Assembly: GCF_000730285.1 (NCBI RefSeq)
Contig: NZ_CP007174.1
Span: forward strand, 992,001-1,056,000
Direction: 5' to 3'
Source: Candidatus Nitrososphaera evergladensis SR1
Lineage (GTDB): Archaea > Thermoproteota > Nitrososphaeria > Nitrososphaerales > Nitrososphaeraceae
DNA: 64,000 nucleotides
The notes beneath the pieces are model-generated. The model made no database searches, had not been told where the DNA came from, and saw nothing but the letters and a program-made list of their open reading frames with translations. Positions 26,755 to 40,683 of this stretch are shown in pieces (position 1 is the stretch's first letter; every line of letters begins with the position of its first letter). A program made the position numbers and the translations under genes.

Positions 26755-26765
26755 ATACGCTCATT
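26755..26765. other. Left attachment repeat of element 2 (attL)
   Basis: ATACGCTCATT here is repeated exactly at 39242-39252. An inverted arm pair GCGTATT (26735-26741) and AATACGC (26754-26760) surrounds this end, as expected for recombinase binding arms. The site lies immediately upstream of the rpl7ae promoter. Confidence 0.6.
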
Positions 26766-26984
26766 ATCGAGTGTTAAACGGTGACAGAATACATTTGTCT
26801 GTCTGACTGTCGATCCTTTCATTCTATGATGCACTACGAAGTAGTTAAGCATTCCCTCCGTGCGGGGAGCCTTCAATATCAGCTTTTCATTAAGCCATTA
26901 GATTTGAAAAATGACAACGAATACCCACATTTCATTAAGAGAACGAAGATATGACTTGGTTTTAACAACGCAGCTAGCGTTTGT

Positions 26985-27167
26985 ATGTATAGGCTCAAAC
27001 TTGACAAATACGCCATAACTACAGAACAAAAGGACTCTACAGGAGATCGTAATGCGCTGGTCAAATTAGGCATAAAGGCGGATCTTTTGAAAGATCTAGA
27101 CGACAAACAACTTGCCGAACTTCTTGCAGCATTGCTTTATACAAAAATGAAGAAGGAAATGGAATAA
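26985..27167 (+). CDS. Possible small element protein
   Basis: A 60-residue frame from ATG 26985 is acid-base balanced and helical (ADLLKDLDDKQLAELLAALL). No ribosome site or family is evident, and an antisense frame overlaps it. The composition looks protein-like, so I list it with modest confidence. The stretch between the left repeat and this frame (26766-26984) shows no other gene. Confidence 0.4.
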   Translation: MYRLKLDKYAITTEQKDSTGDRNALVKLGIKADLLKDLDDKQLAELLAALLYTKMKKEME

Positions 27168-27179
27168 TCACTTCTACCA

Positions 27180-27551
27180 CTATTGAGAAGTACTTTGGTT
27201 GGGAGTGCTCTTACTTTCCAATTCTTTCTTTTTTGCTTCTCTTAACCTATCTCGTGATTTGTCTATCTTTTTGCGATAATGACCAGAACCCCAAGCGATT
27301 ATTATCATTCCTGTTGCTATGAGAATAATTGTTATTGCATACAAATTACTAAACTGTAACCATTTTCCCAAGTCGTTGATCTGACCGAGAGTAACAATTG
27401 CAACTAGGGCACTTATTGACGAAAGCAAAAGTCCAAAGCCTGCACTAGACGCTCCACTGGCATTCACCTGAAGTTTTGCCAAATCTGCTTGGTATTCAAT
27501 TTCGTCATAGGGAACCTCTTCTTTCCGGCGGTTTTCCTTTTCTACGTTCAT
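27180..27551 (-). CDS. Small membrane protein with charged ends
   Basis: The 123-residue protein has an acidic-basic N-terminus (MNVEKENRRKEEVPYDEIEY), two hydrophobic spans (SAGFGLLLSSISALVAIVTL and LYAITIILIATGMIIIAW) and a Lys/Glu-rich cytoplasmic tail likely to be helical. No family is recognised. It is divergent from the nuclease-like gene at 27630, with an AT-rich promoter region between them. Confidence 0.7.
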   Translation of the reverse strand: MNVEKENRRKEEVPYDEIEYQADLAKLQVNASGASSAGFGLLLSSISALVAIVTLGQINDLGKWLQFSNLYAITIILIATGMIIIAWGSGHYRKKIDKSRDRLREAKKKELESKSTPNQSTSQ

Positions 27552-27629
27552 TACCTGAGTTAGTACTAGAACAATTATTTATTTTAGTCCATATTCAATA
27601 AGATTGAAACGAAGCAAGAGGAATGGCAA

Positions 27630-28427
27630 GTGGCAGAACAATTCATTGAAGTGGGAGATATCCTTCGAGAGCTGACTCGACTATTGGGGAAGAATCTGTC
27701 TAGAGACTTACCGGATACACCCATACAACAATCAATAAACACAATATTTCAACTTCATAATGCGCATAGATATCAGGAGAGGAACTACCATATCGCCATT
27801 CTGCAGTTTCTAGTAAGAAACTTACTGGACATTGAAAAGCACGATCAAAAGTTGCTCAAGAAGTACAGACGCATAATTCGTGATTCGTTGGACGTTAACA
27901 AGTATTATGGAGCGAGGTTTGAGGTTGCTACAGCTTCGACTCTGATACGCAATAAATGTAACTTTGAAAGAGTTATTGAGACGACTACTCCCACTCCGGA
28001 TTTCGTTATTCATGAAGTGTCAGACGTTTTCTTGGAATGTGGAAGCACTCACTTGTCAAATCCAAGACCAAAGGACTTTGAGTACAAGATAATTTCTGAA
28101 GCAAAAGAAAAGGGAAGAAAGACCTATTGTAATCATAAAACTGTGCTTCTACTCGATATTTCCAATATTCTTCACCATGCGATTAGGTTCAACATGCCAA
28201 TTCACGCTAGACTGGAAGCAATAACCGAGAAGGCAGTCGGAAGTACCAAATTCGGGAGTCTGTTATTGTTTGACTACATAATCGATAGCAAAACACACCA
28301 ATATTCCCATAGCTACCTTAGAAAAGACAATAGTGATATTGATTCAAACCTTCAACTCTTGCTCGACAGGATATTTCCTTCAGGACATGTTCGTATTGAA
28401 AGTTTTTATCAACCTTCGTTTGGTTGA
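27630..28427 (+). CDS. Putative PD-(D/E)xK-fold nuclease-like protein
   Basis: The 265-residue protein starts at a GTG supported by AAGAGGA 7 nt upstream. A helical N-terminal part (about 1-90) precedes a core reading YGARFEVATASTLIRNK, TPTPDFVIHEVSDVFLECGS. An early Glu, then PDF and, 9 residues on, a strand with E-C-G matches the order of the PD-(D/E)xK nuclease core, but Cys replaces the usual Lys. A later KTVLLLDIS strand would complete such a fold. It may be an inactive or variant nuclease, perhaps for defence or replication. The fold call is tentative. Confidence 0.6.
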   Translation: MAEQFIEVGDILRELTRLLGKNLSRDLPDTPIQQSINTIFQLHNAHRYQERNYHIAILQFLVRNLLDIEKHDQKLLKKYRRIIRDSLDVNKYYGARFEVATASTLIRNKCNFERVIETTTPTPDFVIHEVSDVFLECGSTHLSNPRPKDFEYKIISEAKEKGRKTYCNHKTVLLLDISNILHHAIRFNMPIHARLEAITEKAVGSTKFGSLLLFDYIIDSKTHQYSHSYLRKDNSDIDSNLQLLLDRIFPSGHVRIESFYQPSFG

Positions 28428-28517
28428 CGTTTTTTCCAATGATAATGTTTGCTACGACTCCCTCTCCCCGGGGTGACAGCTAGGTTATTCTCCTCCTTCC
28501 TGAGCTTATAGCTCTCA

Positions 28518-28787
28518 ATGTCTATCGAAGAAAGGATATCCAAGCACCTAAAGATGTACGAGCGTGACTTGTCAGAGAACCACAACCCTATTATCATAAT
28601 GACAAATGAGGCGAAGGTACGAATCCTCAAAACTGCTCCTAGAGACCTAAACAAGCTTAACGTCGAGATAGCATTGAAGACCAAAGCTTACAATAATGAG
28701 ACAAAATTTCCTGAACGAGAAATTCTTAGAGTGGAACTACATGCCTTGGAATGGCTGCGATTGACAGTCAGAATAGAAGCGGGTTAG
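28518..28787 (+). CDS. Small helical protein of unknown function
   Basis: The 89-residue protein (MSIEERISKHLKMYERDL...) is mostly helical and has balanced charge. No family or binding motif is seen. It is downstream of the nuclease-like gene in the same direction, 90 bp apart. An antisense frame overlaps its 5' half but looks less protein-like. Confidence 0.55.
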   Translation: MSIEERISKHLKMYERDLSENHNPIIIMTNEAKVRILKTAPRDLNKLNVEIALKTKAYNNETKFPEREILRVELHALEWLRLTVRIEAG

Positions 28788-28810
28788 TGCGGCCTGATCG
28801 TACCTCGTAA

Positions 28811-29344
28811 TCACAACCAAACCTTTCTTGTTAACACAAAGTCTTCAACCACACCGGTTTCATTACTGTGGTTTACCAAAGTCACTCTGATCCTACTCCC
28901 ATATGCGGTATAGGGGTTGGGTGTGTATGCCATGCTGTAGCGTTCATCGTCCTCTCCTGTTATGTCCTGTTCAGTAGTTGTTTTAAATCTAAGGAGATAT
29001 GGGTGCCGGTAATTAGGTTCACCATGTGGATCCGGCGAGACGCCACTTACAGGTGCAACCTCTCCTGCCGACAAACCCCATGCTTTTTGCAATAATTTCT
29101 CAAATGTCAAGTGGCCGCCCATTATCGAGATCTGAGCACCAGAATCTGCCCATATGTCCACGCTTAAACCAAGGTGGCGACTATTGCCATGCATTTCATA
29201 CATGAAAATTTCACCTTTCTCCTTAACGTCTAATACAACTCGCTCCTCATTTGGCTGCAATCCAATATTGGCAAAGTTATTCTGTATGTACTGGAATTTT
29301 CTGCCAGACTGATCGACTTCAACGGGATTAGTAATCTGAGCCAT
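28811..29344 (-). CDS. Beta-rich protein, candidate virion or capsid component
   Basis: From ATG 29344 (MAQITNPVEVDQSGRKFQ) the 177-residue protein is rich in beta-forming residues and polar loops, without a signal or membrane span. An AGGTGA 5 nt upstream fixes this start over a GTG three codons earlier. Segments such as GEIFMYEMHGNSRHLGLSVD, then SRIRVTLVNHSNETG near the end, suggest an all-beta sandwich. Size and predicted strand content would suit a single jelly-roll capsid or accessory virion protein, but this is inference and needs structure prediction. It is the third gene of a unit with 29350 and 29583. Confidence 0.65.
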   Translation of the reverse strand: MAQITNPVEVDQSGRKFQYIQNNFANIGLQPNEERVVLDVKEKGEIFMYEMHGNSRHLGLSVDIWADSGAQISIMGGHLTFEKLLQKAWGLSAGEVAPVSGVSPDPHGEPNYRHPYLLRFKTTTEQDITGEDDERYSMAYTPNPYTAYGSRIRVTLVNHSNETGVVEDFVLTRKVWL

Positions 29345-29349
29345 GCTTA

Positions 29350-29568
29350 TCACCTAATTCTACCGCAGTTGGCGGTCAACGTCTTAATCCACAGAGCCTC
29401 ATTGGACAAATCTCTAACGCTAGAATAATCACCGAGTTTGACTGCCCTTGTAATTGCATAGTCGAGATTGTCAAGAATATTCTCACTTATCCGGCAGACT
29501 TCTCCTCTTGCGGAACGAGAGAGTCTTGGGATCAGTTTGTTAGCGGCGCGTACTGATTTTTCAGGCAA
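29350..29568 (-). CDS. Small helical protein in the candidate virion module
   Basis: The 72-residue protein (MPEKSVRAANKLIPRLSRSA...) is basic at the N-terminus and helical overall, with no known motif. Its stop codon is part of the AGGTGA ribosome site of the next gene, so translation of the two is probably coupled. It starts 14 nt after the stop of the membrane protein gene at 29583. Confidence 0.6.
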   Translation of the reverse strand: MPEKSVRAANKLIPRLSRSARGEVCRISENILDNLDYAITRAVKLGDYSSVRDLSNEALWIKTLTANCGRIR

Positions 29569-29582
29569 TTATTACCACCCTG

Positions 29583-30119
29583 CTATGTATAAGAGAACAT
29601 TGCCGCAGTTATCGCCGAGTTTGGCCTTGTTAACTCTGACTTTAACGGTTGTCCGTACATATAGCTGTTCATGCGGCCATTGTTCATCGCATTCAGATCA
29701 ACTTGCGACATTTTCCGCAGACCGTTTTGATTCTGTACGGGTGCAGAATTGATACCATATGCACCAGAAGGGAAAGTATTGTCGTACAATCGCCTAGCAT
29801 GAGCTATGGCAGAATTGACGTGAGACTGGAGATTGAATCCCATTCCACTTGCCATCCTACTTATGATAGTGCCAACGACAGCGCCTGCACCTAAGTTGAC
29901 AAATGTCTTTTGTTTAAGAACATATCCCGTACCTGCGGCAGCGAGTCCAAGCCCACCTGTCAATGCATCTGCTTTACTAACAACAACATTACCTAATGGA
30001 ATTATTGGGGAGTTCAAGACCGGCTGCGAGTTTGCAATCTGATTGATAGCAAAGCCACCCACAGCTCCTAACGCCAACTGAACAACGTCATTAGAACCTA
30101 AATTTGAAAGACTACTCAT
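29583..30119 (-). CDS. Gly/Ala-rich hydrophobic protein, candidate membrane or virion protein
   Basis: The 178-residue protein has three hydrophobic Gly/Ala-rich segments (VVQLALGAVGGFAINQI, ADALTGGLGLAAAGTGYVL and FVNLGAGAVVGTIISRM) and a polar, Asn-rich C-terminal half (NQNGLRKMSQVDLNAMNNGR). Small-residue-rich spans like these are frequent in archaeal virion membrane proteins. No family is recognised. It is the first gene of the three-gene unit. TTTAAATACATG upstream (minus strand, about 30140-30153) may be its TATA element. Confidence 0.65.
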   Translation of the reverse strand: MSSLSNLGSNDVVQLALGAVGGFAINQIANSQPVLNSPIIPLGNVVVSKADALTGGLGLAAAGTGYVLKQKTFVNLGAGAVVGTIISRMASGMGFNLQSHVNSAIAHARRLYDNTFPSGAYGINSAPVQNQNGLRKMSQVDLNAMNNGRMNSYMYGQPLKSELTRPNSAITAAMFSYT

Positions 30120-30484
30120 GAATATTCAATATAATATGTTTAAACATGTATTTAAAGTACTGCTGATTTTAATGAAAAAAGGGCAAGATTTCTTGGTTAT
30201 AGTATAATACTAGGGGTGAAATTACACAGGAGTCAGGATTATGTGATTTGAAAACCTCTTTTGCCGGAAGCTAATCTGTTTTCCCGTATCAAGTCCTAGT
30301 TCTTCGAGAATGTTTTTGTCTAATGAAATATAGTGAGACACACGGATCAGTTGAGAGCGGCGTATATTGCTAGTCAAATTTTATTACCAAGTAATATTTA
30401 TGGACTGTCTTACTTAAACATTTAGCGGAAAACTATAACTTTTAAGCTCATATTTAAATTCTAGTTCATAGTATAAATAGTAGA
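30120..30484. promoter_or_regulatory. Divergent promoter region of two structural-looking units
   Basis: These 365 bp hold no gene. AT-rich boxes lie near both ends: TTTAAATACATG for the minus-strand unit and GTATAAATAG just upstream of the plus-strand start at 30485, the latter so close that translation should begin with little or no leader. Palindromic ATGTTTAAACAT occurs at 30137-30148. Confidence 0.5.
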
Positions 30485-30982
30485 ATGACAGCGACGATTT
30501 CATTCAGTGGCAACGGTTTTGACTTTGACATTAACATGTACGGATTCACACCCGGCGAATTAGTTACCATCGTCTTTACGAACGTGAACAACTCTAATGA
30601 CATGTATTCGATTGATACCTATGTAGGCTACAATCCGGTACATGTCCTCCAACAACACTTTCCGGCGGAAGCTGAAGGCAATTACCACGTCACGGCCGTA
30701 GGTTCAACTGGCACAAAGGCGGAAAATACTTTGACTATAGGTTATCCTACCGTGCAGGGCATTCTGCCAAATACAGAAGTGCCTCTGGAAAATATCACAA
30801 ATCAAGGTGGAGAGACGGTACCAATATTCGGGCAGCTAGAGAATATTGGTGGAGCTGCTATCCCTGCAGCGATTCCTACCCAAACTTCACAGAATAATTC
30901 AATTCCATTAGTCTTGGCAGGTGGAGCTCTGTTAGGAGGTCTGTTGCTAATATCTGGTGGAAAGAAGAAGGTGTTTGCCTGA
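30485..30982 (+). CDS. Beta-domain protein with C-terminal membrane anchor
   Basis: The 165-residue protein starts with an Ig-like beta domain (ATISFSGNGFDFDINMYGFT, about 1-90), then a Pro/Thr/Asn linker, then a membrane span SIPLVLAGGALLGGLLLIS followed by GGKKKVFA. It has no N-terminal signal peptide, so either it is a C-tail-anchored protein or its topology is set otherwise. Such an anchored beta protein could be a spike or surface protein of a virion. No family is recognised. Confidence 0.7.
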   Translation: MTATISFSGNGFDFDINMYGFTPGELVTIVFTNVNNSNDMYSIDTYVGYNPVHVLQQHFPAEAEGNYHVTAVGSTGTKAENTLTIGYPTVQGILPNTEVPLENITNQGGETVPIFGQLENIGGAAIPAAIPTQTSQNNSIPLVLAGGALLGGLLLISGGKKKVFA

Positions 30983-31012
30983 CAATTAGCATTTCCTATG
31001 AAAGTGGCATAT

Positions 31013-31567
31013 CTATTTGAGAGTGTTTGCCAATACTGACAGAACGGCTGCAATCGGAATCATGATAACCGCATAAAGGAATGCTCTCTGACTTTCCTTT
31101 AGGTAATCGATCTTCTCTTCATTTAACCCTGTATTCTTGTAGCTTGCATCCAAATAGTCCTTTATCATTCGGCTATTGTAAGATTCCCTCTCTGCATCTT
31201 TCCACGTTCGGATTTCCACATTGTTGAATTTGTCATCTTGGATAAATTGCGAATACATCAGGACATGCTTGTACTCCGCTATCTTGTAAGCATTGGACGC
31301 AGAAAGGATAGTCTTGATAAGAAAAAGTAGCTCCAAGAACATTGCTACAATAGACGCTCCGAGTATCCAGTTCAAGGCAGCATCTTTAAGGACAAAAGCA
31401 CCAAACCCAGTAAATATGGCTGCAATCACGCCTGCCATTGTGATCATATTACTGGCCTTGTTGTCAATGCGTTCTTTGATTTCAAAATCCTTTTCATATT
31501 CCGCTTTTAGATCCTCCCTAAACAAATCCGCAGTAGAGTCTGTCAGATCCCCATTCTGATTTGGCAA
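31013..31567 (-). CDS. Membrane protein resembling the PycTM (DUF5706) effector layout
   Basis: The protein has an N-terminal charged helix ending KERIDNKASNMITMAGVIAA, where D..KA followed by the first span matches the start of the Pycsar effector (DUF5706/PycTM) and SLATT-like families. A second span (LGASIVAMFLELLFLIKTIL) follows, then a soluble helical region, then a third span at the end (AFLYAVIMIPIAAVLSVLA). PycTM proteins are membrane effectors opened by cyclic nucleotides in antiviral defence. No cyclase gene is nearby, so the role is open. I prefer the TTG at 31567, 26 nt from a TATA box; a TTG at 31579 adds four residues. Confidence 0.65.
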   Translation of the reverse strand: MPNQNGDLTDSTADLFREDLKAEYEKDFEIKERIDNKASNMITMAGVIAAIFTGFGAFVLKDAALNWILGASIVAMFLELLFLIKTILSASNAYKIAEYKHVLMYSQFIQDDKFNNVEIRTWKDAERESYNSRMIKDYLDASYKNTGLNEEKIDYLKESQRAFLYAVIMIPIAAVLSVLANTLK

Positions 31568-31588
31568 GTCGTTTCTCAAAGAACTTGC

Positions 31589-31597
31589 TTATATAAG
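31589..31597. promoter_or_regulatory. Palindromic TATA box, probably bidirectional
   Basis: The TTATATAA region centred near 31593 reads the same on both strands. A TTG start lies 26 nt away on each side (31619 on plus, 31567 on minus), the usual TATA-to-start distance for leaderless archaeal transcripts. One box may drive both genes. Confidence 0.45.
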
Positions 31598-31618
31598 AGA
31601 ATTATTAATGATATTTAC

Positions 31619-31723
31619 TTGACTCAAGACGACGAAAAGGATAAAGAAAAACTCAAGGCTTCTACGGGCATAAAGAGAGAGGCATACATAGCCTCAGTTG
31701 ACAAAAAGAAAGAAAAGAAGTAA
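31619..31723 (+). CDS. Small Lys-rich protein, probably leaderless
   Basis: A 34-residue frame from TTG 31619 reads MTQDDEKDKEKLKASTGI, then KREAYIASVDKKKEKK. It is highly charged. Start and TATA spacing support expression. The function is unknown; the basic tail might bind nucleic acid. Confidence 0.45.
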   Translation: MTQDDEKDKEKLKASTGIKREAYIASVDKKKEKK

Positions 31724-31773
31724 GTCGCCGGAATTGCCTTCTCTTCTAACTTTTTTCGAACAATCCCCTCATT

Positions 31774-33273
31774 TTAGATCACCTTTGTTATGAGAATCCG
31801 TCTCCTTGCCGAGCTGCGATCGATTTGAACCTCTATCCCAAGTTTGCGAAGATTAGGTGCGCTCTCCTTGATTTTTAAGCTCATAGCTTTCAAGTTCTGC
31901 GGCCACAAAGTCTTGTCTTTGACGTTTATACCAGAAGTTTCAGCGATTCCGTCAAGTCTATTCTTTAACTTTGTAGGCGTGTCTTCTACGTTCTTGTTGT
32001 TCTCCATTAGTAATGTTATCACTTGTGCTACCGGATTGGATTCAATCGCCAACTCTGTTTGGAGGTCAACTATCCTAGAATATGCATTGGTGAAAACGTC
32101 TTCAGCATATCCGATTTTTCTAGAGATTATCTCGCAAGCTTCAGCAAAGTCCTTCATTCTGAATTCCTTTGATAGCTTGATTCCCCCTTTCTCTTTCTCT
32201 TGAAGATATTTTACCAGAGTGTCAAAGAGATAGCCCAACAATTCTGGCATTAACTCTCGTACTCTGTTATCTATCTCTTCGTCACTTTTTCTTTTCTCAA
32301 TGGCAGCCAATTCTATGGGTATTGATCTCTCTAAGAGGTCTCCTTTGCTCGCAACTTGGCCTATACCATTGAATCCTATGCAGCGTTTGAAGTTGTAGAG
32401 AAAATCTTCGTCGTTTTCGTAGTGCTTGCGTTTGCCAAATCCTGCACCAGTTATTGCTTGACAAAAGAGATCGCTTGTGGACTCATTTATGCCGGATAGG
32501 TTATCATAGAATAAGAGATAGTTGTGGCTAAGCTGTTGGATAGTATCTTCTTCTTTCTTGCTAAGTTTCCAAAGCTCGACGGTGGCCGGATCTACTACTC
32601 TCTTTAGGAGTTTGCAAAATGTTGACTTTGCAGTTCCCCATTCACCGTAAGGAGATATGGCAGCGTGCGATATATTTTCCACAAACAGCGAGATCAAGTA
32701 ACTCTCTACCAGTACCCTCTGATCTTCGTCCTTTATGTTCAGGAGGCCGATATAGTCTGCAAGTATTGTTGGCCGGTATGTCCTACTAGGATATACCTGA
32801 GGTCGATTGTTGTTATTTCTCTTGAATATCATTTTTTGTGGTGAAGATAGACCGCTGCCTAGAATCTCCCAACCCTTTGAGGTTATCTTTACTACCTCCC
32901 AATTATCATTGCAAAGGTCATAGTAGATTGCGTTATCTTCTTGAGCTAGTCTGACATACAACTTACGTTTGTTTTTTGAATAGAGGGCTTGCGATACCAT
33001 ATTGAACTGAATTTTTCTGACTAGCTCTTCTGAAATGAGCATATCCTTGTGGTTTTGAAACTCCCGACTAAGGAAGTGTTTGAAATCTTGTGACTCTATT
33101 GCAACTATCTCAGTGTGCCCGTCTACCACGATTTCAATGTAAGCCCGGCCAAAGTCATCTTTGAATGATTGTCCTACCAATGACTTGGCATGATCAAACA
33201 ACTCCTTTTCAAGAGATATCTTTTCCTTGTTGGAATTTTCCTTCGAGTCTTCAACTCTTTGTCCTGACATATC
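31774..33273 (-). CDS. D5/SF3-like replication ATPase (helicase part of a primase-helicase)
   Basis: The protein (499 residues) has a P-loop GEWGTAKSTFCKLLKRVVDP near residue 210, a Walker B-like LLFYDNLSGINESTSDLFCQ near 253, then AITGAGFGKRKHY and GFNGIGQVASKGDLLERSIP. This order matches the phage/plasmid ATPases often fused behind a primase-polymerase. It should unwind DNA at the element's origin. I place the start at ATG 33273 (MSGQRVED) because AGGTGA lies 10 nt upstream and the upstream gene's stop is just before it; an in-frame ATG at 33318 would overlap that gene by 43 nt. The C-terminal ~120 residues are helical, perhaps a winged-helix DNA-binding part. Confidence 0.85.
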   Translation of the reverse strand, partial: DMSGQRVEDSKENSNKEKISLEKELFDHAKSLVGQSFKDDFGRAYIEIVVDGHTEIVAIESQDFKHFLSREFQNHKDMLISEELVRKIQFNMVSQALYSKNKRKLYVRLAQEDNAIYYDLCNDNWEVVKITSKGWEILGSGLSSPQKMIFKRNNNNRPQVYPSRTYRPTILADYIGLLNIKDEDQRVLVESYLISLFVENISHAAISPYGEWGTAKSTFCKLLKRVVDPATVELWKLSKKEEDTIQQLSHNYLLFYDNLSGINESTSDLFCQAITGAGFGKRKHYENDEDFLYNFKRCIGFNGIGQVASKGDLLERSIPIELAAIEKRKSDEEIDNRVRELMPELLGYLFDTLVKYLQEKEKGGIKLSKEFRMKDFAEACEIISRKIGYAEDVFTNAYSRIVDLQTELAIESNPVAQVITLLMENNKNVEDTPTKLKNRLDGIAETSGINVKDKTLWPQNLKAMSLKIKESAPNLRKLGIEVQIDRSSARRRILITKVI

Positions 33274-33275
33274 TC

Positions 33276-34196
33276 TTAATTCACCTGTTTTGAAACGAAC
33301 TTTACAGCGTCGTTCCATTGCTTTTCAAATTGAGTATTGTCTAGTGGTGGTCTGCAGTGTTCTTCGTTCCATACGTGACAGATTTTCTTGACAAAGTGTT
33401 CGCCATACTTGCCACGAAAACTAACAATCAAGCTCTCCATAGCACGCATAAGGGCTTCATGGCGATTGCTCCCCTCAGATACTGTGAAAGTCTCTGAGAA
33501 GAGTTCAGTTATGGGTATCTGAGATCTATTGCCATGTTTGTTTTCCAAATACTTCAAGCCGTATTTTCTGCAAACTTTGTCAATGTGCTGTTCCAATATC
33601 GAAGTTTGAGCAGCTGTCAGCGTTGCAGGTTCTTCGGTACCTATCAGTTCGTATTGGTGGCCTGACTTGTGAAATGAAGGACTGCAATACATTATACCAT
33701 GTTTGCCGTCACCTTTGACTTCAAGTGCAGGAATGTTATCGTCTACCGCAACTCCAGTGGTTGTATTTCCAGTATTGTCAGAGCTCTTTTTTGTCAGGGG
33801 CCGGGTTGTGTAAAAGTAAATGTGTGCCTTGTTTGGATTGTCTTTGTGTTGCTCTACAAAATGCTGCTTTGCCAGCTCTTGAATCGTGCCAGTTACACCA
33901 TTAGTATTTAGCACTTCTTCAATTGCAATTTTGTTATCGCAATCTATCGCTGCAAGGTAAAGGTGTTTTCTGTCTGTCCTATGCCAGACCTTGCCGCATA
34001 TCACGGCCATTCCTTGATTGAATCCGTTTGTAGCCTTCCACTCATCATGTTGTTTATTGCTGATAGGAGAATCCTGATATTGTGACCACTTGATCCAAGT
34101 CCTTTTGTTTCTAGTGTCTGCAGGAATCACGTTTACTCCGATCACGTTTCTCCAGAAATCCGCCCACTCGTTGAAACTTAATGATAGGTCTATCAT
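33276..34196 (-). CDS. Primase-polymerase (AEP family) with PriCT-like C-terminus
   Basis: The protein has the AEP prim-pol motifs: LAAIDCDNK (DxD metal site, about residue 85), a KAHIYFYTTRP segment with His (motif II, about 125), and ALEVKGDGKHGIMYCSPSFH (motif III, about 159). The last ~90 residues (EGSNRHEALMRAMESL, then WNEEHCRPPLDNTQFEKQWN) match the primase C-terminal helical domain. It should make primers or copy DNA for the element. The start ATG at 34196 overlaps the previous stop (ATGA). In most relatives this domain and the ATPase are one protein; here they are separate genes 2 nt apart. Confidence 0.88.
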   Translation of the reverse strand: MIDLSLSFNEWADFWRNVIGVNVIPADTRNKRTWIKWSQYQDSPISNKQHDEWKATNGFNQGMAVICGKVWHRTDRKHLYLAAIDCDNKIAIEEVLNTNGVTGTIQELAKQHFVEQHKDNPNKAHIYFYTTRPLTKKSSDNTGNTTTGVAVDDNIPALEVKGDGKHGIMYCSPSFHKSGHQYELIGTEEPATLTAAQTSILEQHIDKVCRKYGLKYLENKHGNRSQIPITELFSETFTVSEGSNRHEALMRAMESLIVSFRGKYGEHFVKKICHVWNEEHCRPPLDNTQFEKQWNDAVKFVSKQVN

Positions 34197-34579
34197 GCCC
34201 AAAACACCCCCATTACAATTTCCTTCTGAATGGCTTCCTTTAGCTTTGTCAGTCGGCTAATTTCTTGGCGATAAGCAGCTATGTCAATGTCAATCCTTTC
34301 AACTTCAATCTTTTTCTGTTCAAAGTAGTTCTTGTACTTGCGCTTGAGTTCTGCTCGTGTTGCAGAATCAAGTAGTCGCCTAATCTCTACCAACGATTCA
34401 TACTCGATTTGGTAAAGGTCACACCTTTCAGCAATCTTCCTCACCACAACTCCAGTTGGGGTTGTCTTATCACAGGAGATTGTTGTTTCAAAGTCATCAG
34501 TTGTCACTATGGTGAATATTTCATCTCCAGCTGTTATCGACCTAATCCGTCTTTTCGTGTTGAAATCCGATACCATCAT
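34193..34579 (-). CDS. Coiled-coil protein upstream of the primase gene
   Basis: The 128-residue protein has a beta-like N-terminal part (IRSITAGDEIFTIVTTDDFE) and a long C-terminal coiled coil (about 65-122, with KKIEVERIDIDIAAYRQEIS). No family is recognised. It starts 10 nt after a GGTGAG and ends in a 4-nt ATGA overlap with the primase-polymerase gene, so it belongs to the replication unit and may be a replication accessory. Confidence 0.7.
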   Translation of the reverse strand: MMVSDFNTKRRIRSITAGDEIFTIVTTDDFETTISCDKTTPTGVVVRKIAERCDLYQIEYESLVEIRRLLDSATRAELKRKYKNYFEQKKIEVERIDIDIAAYRQEISRLTKLKEAIQKEIVMGVFWA

Positions 34580-34683
34580 GTTACTTACTCACCGAGATTA
34601 GTGCAAGTAGCACCATAATAGGCACGGAGATCGCTAAGGAAACGACGAATTCAGTAAAGGTTTTTAAATCGGGAAGTGCAACT

Positions 34684-34911
34684 CTAATTTGCATCTCCAG
34701 TTTCACCGATTGGGGTTGTGTTTGCCGGAGTGTTAGGAGCACTTTGGCCATTTTCTTTACTTACAACATGCTTGGTACCTGCATTAGCTAGATAGAATTT
34801 TGCAATCTTTTGCAAAACCTGATCATAACTTTCAGACACAATACCGCACTGCGCAACTAATTCCTTGGTGGCAGGCGAGATATTTAACGAACTTCTTTCA
34901 GACATATTCAT
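34684..34911 (-). CDS. Ribbon-helix-helix-like small DNA-binding protein
   Basis: The 75-residue protein begins SERSSLNISPATKELVAQCG, then SYDQVLQKIAKFYL: one strand followed by two helices, the pattern of ribbon-helix-helix proteins. The last 30 residues are a Pro/Thr-rich tail. It lies next to the repeat-rich candidate origin, upstream of the replication genes, so it may regulate them or bind the repeats. An AAGTATATATA lies about 30 nt upstream of the start. Confidence 0.7.
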   Translation of the reverse strand: MNMSERSSLNISPATKELVAQCGIVSESYDQVLQKIAKFYLANAGTKHVVSKENGQSAPNTPANTTPIGETGDAN

Positions 34912-35058
34912 TCTATTTATACATTTTGCTGATATATATACTTTAAATAAAAATACAACTTTTTTGGCAAGTTTTCATCCATATTGCTATACTGAGGATC
35001 ACTTGTTGTAATAACTATAGTATAGTAGTGAGGGTAATATATACATGAAATCTTATTG

Positions 35059-35411
35059 TGACAGATCCAATGACAGATTAGTGACGGATCGCTGAAAAAT
35101 GTGTCATTGCAAAACTCTTAGAATATTGCTCTTTTGGCCTAACGGGGCTGTTTTTGAGGACTTTTTTCGGCAATGACGGATATGACGCTTGTGACGGATT
35201 ATTGGGTACGTTTATCTGTTGAACAATTTAAAAAATATAATATATAGTAGCAGGAGAATGTTGGAAAAAATGTGTCATATCCGTCACAACCGTCACTAAA
35301 GGATCAATCTCCTCAAATATTGCTCTGTTTGGCAAACGAAGCCTAAATCAAGGACTTTTTTAATGACGGATTATATTGCCAATCTGTCACAAATGTGTCA
35401 CTGATCCGTCA
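35059..35411. repeat. TGACRGAT repeats (candidate iterons of a replication origin)
   Basis: TGACRGAT occurs at 35059, 35071, 35082, 35174, 35192 and 35364 on the plus strand and as the complement at 35279, 35382 and 35404, with degenerate copies between. A larger imperfect direct repeat links 35121-35181 with 35316-35371 (AATATTGCTCT..., GGACTTTTTT, AATGACGGAT). The block contains no gene and lies between the leftward replication genes and the rightward RHH genes, a typical place for an origin. Confidence 0.7.
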
Positions 35412-35483
35412 TAGACCTGTCATTTCGTCAATTATCGCACCAAGTGAAAAGGGTCTTGGCCGGGCCAAAAGGAGCAAATCTAG

Positions 35484-35826
35484 AATCTTTATTTCATGTA
35501 CCAGATCGAAATAAAGATCTTTATCCATGTACCAGAAAAAAGTCTAGATTCTAAGAAATGGAGTACAAAGAGGCATAAAAACAGCTGCAAATGACATAAA
35601 AGTACAAGAAAACACCAGAATCACCGCCAATTTTTGCCAATGCGTCTCATTAACTCCATTCCACGTTTTTCTGTTCTTTTTACTTGTTTGCAGTTCATTT
35701 AGACCTTCTTTGTACGAATTTCTGGTACATTTGCCCTCCTTTTTTGCCCAAATCTTTGGTTTGAGTCCGGTTGAGTCTTGAAATAAAGATTTGATCTGAT
35801 ACATGCTTTCTTGGAATAAAGATTTT
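35484..35826. repeat. Second repeat set: CTTTATTTCATGTACCAG and AATAAAGATTT boxes
   Basis: Related units are at 35484-35505 and 35517-35536 (CTTTATYYCATGTACCAG type) and, inverted, as GAAATAAAGATC at 35508, CTTGAAATAAAGATTT at 35777 and CTTGGAATAAAGATTTT at 35810. An inverted TCTGGTACAT is at 35721. They extend the repeat-dense region beyond the iterons and could be regulatory sites for the RHH proteins. Confidence 0.55.
35544..35804 (-). CDS. Doubtful frame inside the repeat region
   Basis: An 86-residue frame has a basic N-terminal half and one hydrophobic span (LAVILVFSCTFMSFAAVFM). Its first codons are made of the AATCTTTATTTC repeat, and no family or ribosome site is seen. It could be a small membrane protein, but non-coding repeat DNA is about as likely. 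Confidence 0.3.
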   Translation of the reverse strand: MYQIKSLFQDSTGLKPKIWAKKEGKCTRNSYKEGLNELQTSKKNRKTWNGVNETHWQKLAVILVFSCTFMSFAAVFMPLCTPFLRI

Positions 35827-35944
35827 GAAAGAGTCTAACAATCAAATCTTGCAATCAAATCCAACAACTAATTCCGAGATTTGTTATGCAATTTCATTAA
35901 AGATTTAAATATAAGAAATTACTCTAATATTGTATTAATAAAGA

Positions 35945-36331
35945 ATGACAGAAGATTTACATATTTCAGAAACCACAACCAACGTCGAGGAAACAAAATC
36001 TGGCATATCTGAAGCTGACCTAAAGTTACCAACTATAGACGCCGAGACCCAGAGAGTGATAATCGAGAAAGGCGCCAATATCGTTGCAAGACTTGCAGGC
36101 ATTGATGTTAAACCAGTTGAAGACAAAAGAAGTGTGTCAATCCAGCTGACAAAAGAAGAGTATGAAAATTTCAATCTTTGGTCAGAAGAATTGGCAAGAA
36201 AGAAGATTATTCCAAGAGCTTCAATGTCAAGCGTAATCAAGTTCAGTGCAGTACAATATCTTGAAATTATAAACGATCAAGTACGCAAACAGGTGCAGAA
36301 ACAACAGGAGGTAAAAAAGAGTGACCATTAA
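35945..36331 (+). CDS. Ribbon-helix-helix-like protein A
   Basis: The 128-residue protein has an acidic N-terminal half and then KRSVSIQLTKEEYENFNLWS, followed by SMSSVIKFSAVQYLE: a basic strand and two helices as in RHH proteins, with a Gln/Lys-rich tail. TTTAAATATA lies about 35 nt upstream of the start. Its stop overlaps the next start (TAATG), so the two RHH genes are translated together. Partition or copy-control factors often have this form. Confidence 0.65.
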   Translation: MTEDLHISETTTNVEETKSGISEADLKLPTIDAETQRVIIEKGANIVARLAGIDVKPVEDKRSVSIQLTKEEYENFNLWSEELARKKIIPRASMSSVIKFSAVQYLEIINDQVRKQVQKQQEVKKSDH

Positions 36332-36723
36332 TGATTCAAAATATTATCAAGAAGAAAGACCCAAAGTATGTTACCGTCTATGTCAACAAGAATTTAACCG
36401 GCACGATTGAATCAAAGATACAACAGCTTGCCGAGCTAGGTATCCTCCCGCCAAATACTACCAAGGCCAAGTTCATTAAACACGCTGTCGGGTTCTATCT
36501 TGCCAATTTTTCAGAAGGAAACATTGCTGGTCTTCAGGCGTATCAAACCTCCCATAAAGAACATGGAATAGGCAAGAATGCAAAGGATCTCTATGCAGAA
36601 ATCAAGTTAGAGACCTTCAGAGCAGTCCAAACAAAACTAGCTCATGAAATCGAATGGATAAAGAAACAGAACACAATGGCACCTTCCATTTCCAAGCTCC
36701 TTAACAGCGGTGATACAAAATGA
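36331..36723 (+). CDS. Ribbon-helix-helix-like protein B
   Basis: The 130-residue protein has KYVTVYVNKNLTGTIESKIQ, then TTKAKFIKHAVGFYLAN, again strand-helix-helix. The rest is helical. It is coupled to the gene before it and, through an ATGA overlap, to the small gene at 36720. With protein A it may form a partition or regulatory pair acting at the nearby repeats. Confidence 0.65.
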   Translation: MIQNIIKKKDPKYVTVYVNKNLTGTIESKIQQLAELGILPPNTTKAKFIKHAVGFYLANFSEGNIAGLQAYQTSHKEHGIGKNAKDLYAEIKLETFRAVQTKLAHEIEWIKKQNTMAPSISKLLNSGDTK

Positions 36724-36833
36724 ACAAGATAACTATACCACCAATCATGGAGAGAGAAGAAGCATTAGAAAGAGTTGCGCTATTCCTCATAGCAAAAGAG
36801 GTATCGGTACTTCGTAAATGGTTAGGGGAATAA
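36720..36833 (+). CDS. Very small helical protein (37 aa)
   Basis: The ATG at 36720 overlaps the stop of RHH protein B (ATGA). The product MNKITIPPIMEREEALERVA and following LFLIAKEVSVLRKWLGE is a short amphipathic helix. The tight packing between two genes supports that it is real. No function can be assigned. Confidence 0.55.
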   Translation: MNKITIPPIMEREEALERVALFLIAKEVSVLRKWLGE

Positions 36834-36835
36834 GA

Positions 36836-37000
36836 ATGGGCAGACCAAGGAAGAAGAAGCAAGAGAAGAGAACATTCACCCTGACAGAATGGGAAAGGAT
36901 TCGCAGAGAAATGCCTTCATTCGACGAACAAGAGTTAAAAGAATTCTTTGACTTTCCCCGGATAGTAGCTGATCCAAAAATGGATTCTGGATATCTTTAG
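36836..37000 (+). CDS. Small basic protein with AT-hook-like start
   Basis: From ATG 36836, two nt after the previous stop, the 54-residue protein reads MGRPRKKKQEKRTFTLTEWE. GRPRKKK resembles an AT-hook for the DNA minor groove. The rest is helical and acidic. It lies in the RHH operon, which suggests a DNA-related role. An in-frame start at 36818 is less likely because it would lie inside the previous gene. Confidence 0.55.
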   Translation: MGRPRKKKQEKRTFTLTEWERIRREMPSFDEQELKEFFDFPRIVADPKMDSGYL

Positions 37001-37004
37001 CAAG

Positions 37005-37436
37005 GTGGGCAGATTGGGCGATCTTAATTCATTCAATCCAGATGATATCCCTGCTTCCAAGAAGACTCGCAATGTGGTAGCAGGTGACATTAATGTTGGA
37101 AAGAAGTCTCCAGCGGAGTTAGAGCAAGGTCATATCGAAGAGGATTTGCAGACGCAAGTATCTGCAACGGATTCAATCTTTTCATTACAGTCATTAGACG
37201 ATAAAACCCAAAGAGAGTTAGCGGAGTTTGCCGGGTATTACTATGAACGTGGAAGGATAACCCAACCAAGTATTCAGGTATTAATCCAATACCACTTTCA
37301 AGAAATCATGGAAAGAATGAGATCTGAATATCAAAGTTACATTTTCAACAAACAGTTAGAAGAAATGATGATGAAGAAAATGGGTGTTAATCCTGACATG
37401 GTATTTTCAAAGTTTAACAACTTTTATCTGCCTTAG
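37005..37436 (+). CDS. Helical protein at the end of the RHH operon
   Basis: The 143-residue product is acidic in its first half and helical later (ELAEFAGYYYERGRITQPSI; EEMMMKKMGVNPDMVFSK). No family is recognised. The start is either GTG 37005 or TTG 37014; AAGGTG just before the TTG would be a good ribosome site for the latter. It follows the AT-hook-like gene by a few nt, so five small genes form one unit. Confidence 0.6.
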   Translation: MGRLGDLNSFNPDDIPASKKTRNVVAGDINVGKKSPAELEQGHIEEDLQTQVSATDSIFSLQSLDDKTQRELAEFAGYYYERGRITQPSIQVLIQYHFQEIMERMRSEYQSYIFNKQLEEMMMKKMGVNPDMVFSKFNNFYLP

Positions 37437-37561
37437 TATGATACTGTACCTTGTTCTTCCTTCTTTTATGTGAATTTTCCTATAAGCTTAAATACTTAAG
37501 TTAGTATATTTACATTGCCTACAATCACTACTGTTTGAACGGCACTTTGGAACTGCATTCG

Positions 37562-37583
37562 GGGTGGGGGTTGACCCTCCCAC
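37562..37583. terminator. GC-rich hairpin in AT-rich DNA
   Basis: GGGTGGG and CCCTCCCACC around TTGA can pair in a stem, about 125 bp beyond the end of the RHH operon. It may end transcription or mark a protein site. The GC-rich block stands out in the surrounding AT-rich DNA. Confidence 0.35.
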
Positions 37584-37630
37584 CTCATACGTCTCTTCCT
37601 TATCCAAGTTAAGTCTTCTTTAATAGTGAT

Positions 37631-37647
37631 AATTGTACAGTACAATT
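37631..37647. promoter_or_regulatory. Perfect 17-bp palindrome before a small gene
   Basis: AATTGTACAGTACAATT is fully symmetric about its central A and ends 3 nt before the ATG at 37651. It could be an operator for an element repressor, or form a small hairpin at the start of the transcript. Confidence 0.5.
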
Positions 37648-37650
37648 GAA

Positions 37651-37767
37651 ATGGATGTACTACCAATACTTTTTGTAGCTGTAGGCGGATTATGCGCCGC
37701 AATGATCTATGTCGTGATGGGATCAAAAATTCGTAGCTGGTTGCACGTCGCACCGGTGAGAAAATAA
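37651..37767 (+). CDS. Small single-span membrane protein (38 aa)
   Basis: The frame reads MDVLPILFVAVGGLCAAMIY, then VVMGSKIRSWLHVAPVRK: one membrane span and a basic tail. The palindrome immediately upstream suggests controlled expression. Small membrane proteins are frequent in archaeal viruses and plasmids. It is convergent with the integrase gene, 23 nt apart. Confidence 0.55.
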   Translation: MDVLPILFVAVGGLCAAMIYVVMGSKIRSWLHVAPVRK

Positions 37768-37790
37768 GATCCCTTTCCTCTTTTTGAATT

Positions 37791-39122
37791 CTAATTCTGC
37801 AATTTCTTCGTTTCTATCTCCTCAAGTTCTTCCAAACCCGTCTTAACGTTGCCCCTTTCTCTTTCAGACTTCCAGAATAGCTCCATATCCTTATCTCGTT
37901 GTTTTTGCATTTCCGCAATCTGTTTCTTTAGCACTTCTACGTCAGAATTCTTTTCTGTTTTCAAGATATCCAACTGTTCTGATAAAGTCCTAATGCGACT
38001 CTGAGATACTTCAAGCTCCTTGACCAAGCTTCTCTGCTTCTCTTCAATTGCACTCGTGTCCATAAAGGTAATCAGATGTTCAACCCCGGCAAAGTCTTCT
38101 GCAATTTCTTCTTCAGTCTTCTTGGTATATTCGTGAACCTTCCGTCCAATGTGGTACTTTGCGTACTGCTCGTTGACAGCTTTGGTGCAAGCTGTGAAAA
38201 CATACCGGCGTAGAGTGTGTAAGGTAATCTTTCGCCGCTTTCCACCTTCTTCATACCCTATTTCCAACCTATCTATTAGATCTCTGAACCGGTCTGCAGC
38301 CTCTTTGTAAAGTGCCCGGAGGGTCGCAACAAGTTCTTCGTGATACGGCGCAAAAACATAATCTTCTGGTTTGGGAACGGGTATCACCTGTTTCTTATTC
38401 CAAACGAGTTTGCCGTTCTTCAACACTTGACGATTGATAGTCCTTGGTCTATACTTGAAAGCAAGCCATTTCTCAATTTGCGACCTCATTTCACTAGTGA
38501 GTTGTCTACGCTTGCCTGCCTTTGTCTTTGAGTGCTTTCCTCTGACATTGACAAAGGTTGGATTTGTGGTGAATTTCAAAGTCTTTAGGTCGAGTCCTTC
38601 CAAGTGTTGGTTCTGGATCGAGAAGCTTTCTTTCGCACGCCAACCCATACTCGCCTCCCACATAGCATACGTTTGTAATCTGATATCCTCACAAGCTATG
38701 ATAATACTTTGAATGGTCTTCTTGGCCGCTGGTGAAAGTTCTGGTTCCTCTGGTTTGGGGTACTTTACTTGCTGCTTGAAGATTGCATTACTAATCGGAA
38801 TAAAGTTGACTTCTAAAAAGTTCCTCGCCCAACTTACTTTCAGTTTGATCGTTCGGGCATTGTTACTTCCACCATTATCTTCAAACCTGTTCTTTACAAG
38901 CCAGTTTGCGTACGCTTTCATTATGTGGTAAACTTGTTCCTCCTTCGGATCGTCCGTAGCCGTACCGTCCTTCAGCTTTTTCACCAGCTCGGTCACCCTC
39001 ATTTTTAGCTGGTCTTTTGCATAGGTTTCAAAGTCCTTAATGAAATAGCCGACAGCTTTTGCACTGCCTACATTCTGAGTGGCTATCGTATCGAGGTACT
39101 TTTGGACGAGCGGATCCGGCAT
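37791..39122 (-). CDS. Integrase of element 2 (tyrosine recombinase)
   Basis: The 443-residue protein has an N-terminal core-binding part (about 1-120) and a catalytic domain with Arg in WEASMGWRAKESFSI, a Lys in NVRGKHSKTKAGKRR, HTLRRYVFT (HxxR) and a candidate Tyr in GRKVHEYTKKT. A long C-terminal coiled coil follows (about 360-425). It has no zinc ribbon, unlike the integrase of element 1. It lies 120 bp from the right repeat of the element, so it should catalyse its integration and excision. The reading frame is complete. Confidence 0.88.
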   Translation of the reverse strand: MPDPLVQKYLDTIATQNVGSAKAVGYFIKDFETYAKDQLKMRVTELVKKLKDGTATDDPKEEQVYHIMKAYANWLVKNRFEDNGGSNNARTIKLKVSWARNFLEVNFIPISNAIFKQQVKYPKPEEPELSPAAKKTIQSIIIACEDIRLQTYAMWEASMGWRAKESFSIQNQHLEGLDLKTLKFTTNPTFVNVRGKHSKTKAGKRRQLTSEMRSQIEKWLAFKYRPRTINRQVLKNGKLVWNKKQVIPVPKPEDYVFAPYHEELVATLRALYKEAADRFRDLIDRLEIGYEEGGKRRKITLHTLRRYVFTACTKAVNEQYAKYHIGRKVHEYTKKTEEEIAEDFAGVEHLITFMDTSAIEEKQRSLVKELEVSQSRIRTLSEQLDILKTEKNSDVEVLKKQIAEMQKQRDKDMELFWKSERERGNVKTGLEELEEIETKKLQN

Positions 39123-39241
39123 ACAAGATGCTATGATATTATTGGATATATTTACGTATAATGGTCATATTTAGATTGTATAGAAGAAGGGTTAAAAATG
39201 GATACTAAAAATCGTATATTGTCCACCTTTAACCCATGATT

Positions 39242-39252
39242 ATACGCTCATT
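39242..39252. other. Right attachment repeat of element 2 (attR), in a gene's 3' end
   Basis: ATACGCTCATT matches the left copy exactly and covers the stop codon (39248-39250) of the phosphohexomutase gene. The element therefore ends at a protein gene's 3' end and leaves it intact. Inverted CGTATA (39213-39218) and TATACG (39241-39246) arms are nearby. Confidence 0.6.
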
Positions 39253-40612
39253 GTGCCATTTTTGACCTCACGATCCTCGAATATTCATCCACTTTGGAGT
39301 CAAGCAATGCTCTGTCAGTCGACTCGGCGTACATGCGTATCAGTGGCTCCGTGCCGCTTGGCCTCACCATGAGCCACGTTTCGTCGTCTAACCATATCTT
39401 GGCCCCGTCCATCGTCTCTATCCTTTTTGGGCTGCCGTGCTCCATGCACGCTTTTACCACTCTTTCCACTACTTCGCGGGAACTGCATACGAATTTTGTC
39501 TTAACCTGAAATGTCCTTGGCAATTTCTCTACAAGTCGCGAAAACGACTCGCCGGTAGCTGCAAGCATGTCAAGCACAAGAGCCGTCGTCATCGCGCCGT
39601 CCCTCACCTCGTTTATGGGCCCGTACATGAACCCGCCGTTTTCCTCAAGTCCCATCGGCGCCTTGCGCTTTACCATCTCCCTTGACACCTCGACGCTTCC
39701 AACCTTGGTGTGCACCACCTTTATGCCAGATTCTTCTGCGACTTTGGATAGCACCATTGACGTGTTTACCGGGCAGACTATCTCGGAGCCCCTGTGCCTC
39801 TGCGCAAGCAGGTTCTTTGCCAAAAGCGAGCCGGTCTTGTCGCCCCAGTAGATGCTGCCGTTGTTGTCGCAAAAGATGCTCCTGTCGCCATCGCCGTCAA
39901 ACGCGACTCCAAAGTCTGCCCTGCCGTTTCTGACGGTCTCTGCAAGCACGCTCAGGTTGTCAGGCGTGGGCTCTGACCCTCGACCGGGAAAGTCGCCGTC
40001 AATGTCGCCATTGATGACGATTACCTTGCAGCCAAGCTTTTTTGCGATTATCGGGGCGACAACCGACTGCGCGCCGTTTCCCGTGTCCATCGCCACTGTA
40101 AAGTTCTTGGCGCGTATCCTGTCGGCATCGACAAGCGACAACACCTTTTCCATGTATGTGGGGACGACGTTGTCATCCACGTACTGGCGCCCACAGCCTG
40201 CCATCGTCGCAAACTTTTTTGAATGATAAATATCCTCGACTGTCAGCTCGTCCTCTCGAGATATTTCTACACCGTCTGATGCTGCCGGCTTGATGCCGTT
40301 GTACTCTGGCGGGTTGTGCGACGCCGTTATCATGATGCCACCGTTGTAGCCGAGCCTCTTTGCGGCATGCTGCAGGCATGGAGTTGGGACCAGCCCTGCG
40401 TCTGCAACGTCTAGGCCGGCCGAGTTGAGTGTTGCGCGCACCAGCCTTGAAACCACCGGGCTTGACTTGCGCCCGTCGTACCCGACCACTATTGGGCCTT
40501 TTTTGTAATACGTGGCGATTGCATACGAAAGGTCGATGACAAGGTCGCTTGTAAAGTCATTGCCCCACACGCCGCGCACCCCGTTTGTGCCAAATAATCT
40601 TGTTCTCTGCAT
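39248..40612 (-). CDS. Phosphohexomutase (phosphoglucosamine/phosphomannomutase type)
   Basis: From ATG 40612 (MQRTRLFGTNGVRG) the protein has 454 residues. It holds the active-site Ser loop ITASHNPPEYNG, the metal-binding loop VAFDGDGDRS and the sugar loop GLEENGGFMYG, with C-terminal VRPSGTEPLIRMYAE. It moves phosphate between C1 and C6 of hexose phosphates, for sugar-nucleotide synthesis; archaeal relatives act on glucosamine, mannose or glucose phosphate. A frame from 40681 adds 23 unlike residues. Element 2 is integrated at its 3' end, apparently without changing the protein. Confidence 0.94.
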   Translation of the reverse strand: MQRTRLFGTNGVRGVWGNDFTSDLVIDLSYAIATYYKKGPIVVGYDGRKSSPVVSRLVRATLNSAGLDVADAGLVPTPCLQHAAKRLGYNGGIMITASHNPPEYNGIKPAASDGVEISREDELTVEDIYHSKKFATMAGCGRQYVDDNVVPTYMEKVLSLVDADRIRAKNFTVAMDTGNGAQSVVAPIIAKKLGCKVIVINGDIDGDFPGRGSEPTPDNLSVLAETVRNGRADFGVAFDGDGDRSIFCDNNGSIYWGDKTGSLLAKNLLAQRHRGSEIVCPVNTSMVLSKVAEESGIKVVHTKVGSVEVSREMVKRKAPMGLEENGGFMYGPINEVRDGAMTTALVLDMLAATGESFSRLVEKLPRTFQVKTKFVCSSREVVERVVKACMEHGSPKRIETMDGAKIWLDDETWLMVRPSGTEPLIRMYAESTDRALLDSKVDEYSRIVRSKMAQ

Positions 40613-40683
40613 CTGCAAAGGATGCAATGTAACAATAGATAAAAATTTGGCTACCATCCGCTGGTGCAGGTGCGCACGCATGT

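Follow-up and report, generated by a model that had tools for sequence, protein, structure and literature searches.

An inverted TGAC iteron array as the probable replication origin of an integrated element in Candidatus Nitrososphaera evergladensis

A TGAC repeat array inside an integrated element

Which function is served by a dense cluster of short repeats that lies between the replication genes of an archaeal mobile element and a divergent operon? The first-pass annotation of this locus had reported at least nine copies of TGACRGAT in about 350 bp without a gene, pointing to an origin or a centromere. Indeed, nine exact copies are located at 35059-35411, a stretch in which no gene was found, out of 11 copies in the window, i.e. 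the complete 64-kb stretch of DNA that was analysed. Whole-window shuffles gave a mean of 3.63 copies compared to these 11, and a local Markov null of the 401-bp stretch never exceeded two copies in 20,000 trials. Counted over the genome, the motif occurs 137 times in 2.95 Mb, and the only four same-strand pairs at a distance of up to 30 bp all belong to this cluster, which confirms the reported observation. The degenerate copies of the TGTGTCA type noted between the exact ones correspond to TGACACA on the other strand and bring the total to 16 TGAC-core sites within 35059-35430, so that the array reaches past the limit of 35411 given earlier. Likewise, the two longer imperfect direct repeats carrying AATATTGCT...GGACTTTTTT...AATGACGGAT (35122-35181 and 35316-35371, both forward) were recovered with an alignment score of 25.5, compared to a null maximum of 9.5 in 2000.

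Beyond these repeats, we found that the sites form inverted 9-bp and 11-bp arrays around an AT-rich centre. The motif scan revealed an overall mirror, with arrays A and B on the forward strand, a spacer, arrays C and D on the reverse strand and one odd-strand site on each side. Array A (35059-35089) consists of three TGACRGAT sites, which are 12 and 11 bp apart, and is separated from B by a single reverse site, ATGTGTCA (TGACACAT), at 35099-35106. The inner left triplet, array B (35174-35199), comprises three TGAC sites with 9-bp spacing and is mirrored by the inverted inner right triplet, array C (35270-35295), with the same number of sites and the same spacing. Array D (35382-35430) contains five inverted TGAC sites with a spacing of 11 bp and a last step of 8; the one forward site between C and D is TGACGGAT, in which the second copy of the longer repeat ends. 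The TGAC cores of the inner triplets enclose a 78-bp spacer (35196-35273), which contains TTTAAAAAATATAATATATAG and is 73% AT compared to 60% for the whole element, and which we propose as the unwinding region. Among non-palindromic tetramers containing G or C, GTCA alone yields an inverted 8/9-bp array of six sites within the element.

The cluster sits inside a low-GC island of the single-contig genome of this soil ammonia-oxidising archaeon (2,954,373 bp, of which the window covers bases 992001-1056000), within a region of about 12.5 kb (26755-39252) that carries the 11-bp direct repeat ATACGCTCATT at its left (26755-26765) and right (39242-39252) end. The right copy overlaps the stop codon of a reverse-strand gene (39248-40681), which was named sugar-phosphate mutase-like from reading of its protein sequence. 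Since a congener genome (G042) harbors an uninterrupted site, in which the left and right flanks are contiguous and overlap by exactly these 11 bp, we conclude that the region represents an integrated mobile element. Adjoining the right repeat, a 443-aa ORF (37791-39122, reverse strand) was assigned to the integrase type from its position and sequence; it has a homologue at one primase-polymerase (primpol) locus (E 6e-41) and no match in a Pfam scan.

The array is flanked on one side by the primpol/helicase operon, on the reverse strand, and on the other by a divergent operon with two ribbon-helix-helix (RHH)-like genes. Next to the array, the replication (rep) operon begins with a 75-aa RHH (CopG)-like ORF (34684-34911), for which database searches gave no match and AlphaFold a weak model of low confidence with two helices (pLDDT 61). 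It is accompanied by a 128-aa ORF (34193-34579), which is 42% identical over 79 aa to its counterpart in a second element of the same genome (the sister element), a Prim-Pol ORF of 308 aa (33276-34202; PF09250, E 3.3e-9) and a helicase ORF of 514 aa (31774-33318), which overlaps the primpol ORF in another frame and is similar to a primase/helicase protein of a phage (24% identity, E 8e-28). Relatives encode primpol and helicase as one fused ORF of 750-930 aa, compared to the two overlapping frames at 31774-34202 here, which could reflect a natural split, a frameshift or decay; due to this split, present-day activity is uncertain. The divergent operon comprises two RHH-like ORFs of 128 and 130 aa (35945-36723, forward strand), which diverge fast from their counterparts in the sister element (28% and 33% identity). 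All RHH assignments, including that of the 75-aa ORF, were made by eye from the protein sequences and from the one weak model.

Recurrence of the array at primpol loci

Inverted TGAC arrays with 8/9-bp spacing were identified at 11 of 40 related primpol loci of the Nitrososphaeraceae, or at 12 of 41 including the window, compared to 1.02 on average for tetramers with the same GC count; these loci are kin, many of them from one genus, and are not independent. In eight of 39 relatives an array is found in the interval from -300 to +500 bp around the rep stop, compared to 0.01 on average and at most 1 in a second-order Markov null; outside this interval, the 372 kb of the relatives' loci contain only four TGAC arrays. 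The remaining 29 of the 41 loci, some of whose contigs end early, lack a strict array, and looser versions are present in L065, L068 and L071. The array is positioned 5' of the rep operon in the window and mostly 3' of rep in the relatives, which explains why the upstream gaps of the relatives were free of arrays on first look and why the arrays were found by a scan of the whole loci. Flanking bases vary as well, with TTGACRGT in several window-type reps and TGACAnCCC in some D5-type reps, and the TGACGGAT version of the window also occurs in L091. Of the conservation expected in sister elements, the TGAC core and the layout thus hold in a number of primpol elements, but neither the bases flanking the core nor the placement with respect to rep is conserved. 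The helicases of the array-bearing reps differ (window type, D5_N/DUF5906 or MCM fusion) and the primpol part is common to them.

The TGAC array is probably the replication origin of the 12.5-kb element, and is predicted to be read and opened by its primase-polymerase/helicase. Of the two functions considered at the outset, the origin is well supported, both by the geometry of the sites and by their association with rep genes of the primpol type throughout the archaeal family. A change of GC skew at the array was discarded as an origin signal, because it follows gene orientation.

A scan of 70 genomes gave eight places with the divergent pattern, four of them at the 3' end of a primpol gene, and five control hits; as the spacing ranges were chosen after the primpol loci had been seen, this search is not fully independent. 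Matches to the convergent pattern in other genomes, some of them without a rep gene nearby (G017, G043, G051), were left uncounted. Coding repeats are possible in L097 and L088, since the arrays there overlap the end of the rep ORF. In L064, a TGAC cluster about 2.7 kb from rep, with periods of 15 and 12 bp, looks like coding repeats and was set aside; the same locus contains a separate strict array at +1121. L097:1793-4996 encodes primpol fused to MCM in one protein of 1067 aa, an unusual replicase fusion that was recognized by a Pfam MCM match together with a matched primpol part.

The sister element and alternative functions of the array

The sister element (L003:2056-13216, G000:C1 about 2080055-2091215) is located between 46-bp repeats at an apparent tRNA 3' end, the tRNA having been identified by reading of the sequence. 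It has the 165-aa (96%), 143-aa (82%), 178-aa (68%) and 180-aa (57%) proteins in common with the window element, but an MCM helicase replaces primpol and helicase as the replicase. The putative structural genes are the same in both elements. Its intergenic region contains no TGACRGAT cluster. Instead, GTAACA sites are arranged there in the same geometry: a pair spaced by 18 bp is followed, after about 70 bp (68-72), by three inverted sites 8-9 bp apart. A different motif goes along with a different replicase here. A 35-bp core (35424-35458, forward strand), which had not been part of the earlier description, abuts the array in both elements and is 97% identical between them, while their flanks do not align; a 25-mer of this core occurs only in the two elements among 300 genomes of the order. 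The integrase ORF of the sister element spans the att site, like a gene that is split on integration, and the element itself may be the published NitEve-E3.

An RHH-like protein could bind the TGAC arrays as a partition centromere and thereby segregate the element. RHH proteins recognize short sites that are repeated in tandem every 7-11 bp, which matches the 9-bp and 11-bp spacing, and the RHH-like operon is located next door. However, the arrays track primpol genes, and no homologues of the two RHH-like proteins were present at 20 searched primpol loci, which include most of the array-bearing ones. In addition, no ParA-type ATPase was detected among the Pfam-scanned proteins of the element, a set that does not extend to all small ORFs. 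We thus regard a centromere at this array as unlikely, and RHH binding, which the first-pass annotation had proposed to test, is not supported for this array. A better candidate is the repeat module at 35477-35830, which is closer to the RHH operon. Its left part (35477-35551) consists of nested inverted repeats with two ATGTACCAGA copies and a DNA fold z of -3.85, and its right part (35714-35830) of inverted ATGTACCAGA copies and AATAAAGAT copies, which may serve the RHH operon as operator or as partition site. At this position, the sister element carries ACACTATTAATAGTGT and ACACCGGTGT palindromes, and the module has changed between the two elements together with the RHH-like genes. A centromere or operator role fits this module better than the TGAC array.

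Slightly less probable again is a role in copy control, with the 75-aa RHH-like protein binding the arrays and repressing the rep operon, as CopG or ORF56 in pRN1. The position of its gene, first in the operon and adjoining the array, would agree with such an operator, and so would the 63-aa zinc-ribbon-like ORF, a different small ORF that occupies the same place in the sister element together with the other motif. Yet about 115 bp separate the nearest site from the likely TATA box downstream of it (assigned by eye), the 75-aa protein has no homologue at the 20 other primpol loci searched, and neither the inverted triplets around an AT-rich spacer nor the position 3' of rep in the relatives is what an operator would lead one to expect. 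Finally, it is very improbable that the true origin is located elsewhere, with the iterons as auxiliary sites: pRN1 and its relatives do use a stem-loop of about 100 bp 3' of orf904 (PMC4234260) and the inverted repeat at 35477-35551 is significant, but folding of the DNA 3' of the helicase ORF gave no strong stem-loop (z 0.10 and -1.17), the equivalent segments of the sister element gave weaker fold signals than the inverted repeat (z -2.64 and -2.11), and TGAC arrays recur at primpol genes.

Proposed initiation and comparison with known replicons

For the array as an origin, we infer a sequence of binding, melting and bidirectional start. The primase-polymerase/helicase would bind the inverted TGAC iterons as two opposed assemblies, which would melt the AT-rich spacer; the replicase could then load on the two strands and prime, leading to a bidirectional start and enabling the excised circle to replicate. 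A similar layout is known from SaPI origins, in which two repeat sets flank an AT-rich stretch. In SaPIs, the iterons follow immediately after the gene of the self-loading Rep helicase, whose C-terminal domain recognizes them; binding apparently involves two hexamers (PMC7581432). SaPI/SCCmec Rep-type origins share with the loci described here the short tandem repeats beside a primase/helicase initiator gene, located directly 3' of rep in our relatives. Unlike these origins, the array belongs to archaeal hosts, has a TGAC core at strict 8/9-bp spacing and lies 5' of the rep operon in the window. Regular short repeats, an AT-rich region between them and, in the relatives, linkage to the initiator gene are present as in iteron origins in general; the location directly downstream of rep, which characterizes the SaPI/SCCmec subtype, applies to the relatives and not to the window. 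As the window array is 5' of the rep operon, our proposal is that it works like SaPI and P4 origins, not that it is a member of the SaPI type.

The alpha protein of phage P4 differs by its TOPRIM primase, as opposed to an archaeo-eukaryotic primpol, and by its motif. It is the C-terminal part of this helicase protein that reads the origin. Alpha is a fused primase-helicase, which recognizes repeats at its origin (PMC4234260). Because TGAC cores accompany reps with several kinds of helicase, the sites may be read by the primpol part or by a host factor. We tentatively consider it possible that a TGAC iteron module, with inverted 8/9-bp triplets on both sides of an AT-rich spacer, is common to mobile elements of the Nitrososphaeraceae and is kept constant while the helicase attached to primpol (window type, D5, MCM) is exchanged. 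If this were true, the primpol domain itself or a host protein would read the origin, unlike in SaPI Rep and P4 alpha. With the origin signature, it becomes testable by which of its parts a primpol replicase selects the start site upon exchange of the helicase.

The Sulfolobus plasmid pRN1 (orf56/orf904) resembles the window element in its operon of a small RHH-like gene and a primpol-helicase, and the relatives in its cis element 3' of rep (PMC4234260, PMC3869888). Its origin is a 100-bp stem-loop, stated to be without iterons (PMC4234260), which contrasts with the iteron array and with the region 3' of the window helicase ORF. A scan of pRN1 gave no inverted TGAC array; its replication protein has a match in the helicase of one relative, L070 (30.8% identity, E 2e-24). 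As in the array, AT-rich DNA lies between inverted binding sites in the Cdc6/Orc1 origins of archaeal chromosomes with their origin recognition boxes. Unlike such origins, the window array has no adjacent Cdc6/Orc1 gene and no sites in common with the host origins: Cdc6_C was found in the genome only at G000:C1:66824 and 920, neither of them inside the element, and no inverted TGAC array is located near these two host genes.

Cryptic integrated elements of thaumarchaea with primpol-S3H or MCM belong to the same class as the window element; their description includes N. evergladensis elements, one of them with MCM and a split integrase resembling the sister element (PMC6563490). Within the main text of that paper, the terms "origin of replication" and "replication origin" are absent, and in open-access full text we found no published description of this origin class or of mobile-element origins in ammonia-oxidising archaea. 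The origin signature could define replicons in cryptic integrated elements, find elements that have lost or swapped their rep gene and help attempts at shuttle vectors for ammonia-oxidising archaea.

Divergent TGAC arrays of the same type were also observed at L123:6181-6283 and L124:2564-2672 with no primpol gene in the fetched flanks, the latter adjoined by integrase-like fragments; they may be orphan origins left behind by decayed elements. Viral contigs were searched with the helicase, with the 165-aa, 178-aa and 180-aa proteins, with a rep protein and with the 35-bp core, all without a match, and the primpol alignment gave a single weak match; scans of genome contigs gave no matches. The 180-aa, 178-aa and 165-aa proteins (28811-30982), which are common to both elements of the genome, had no relatives beyond these two in the searches made. 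The 180-aa protein is beta-rich in a poor AlphaFold model (pLDDT 39), and the three could represent virion proteins from a group of viruses not yet described.
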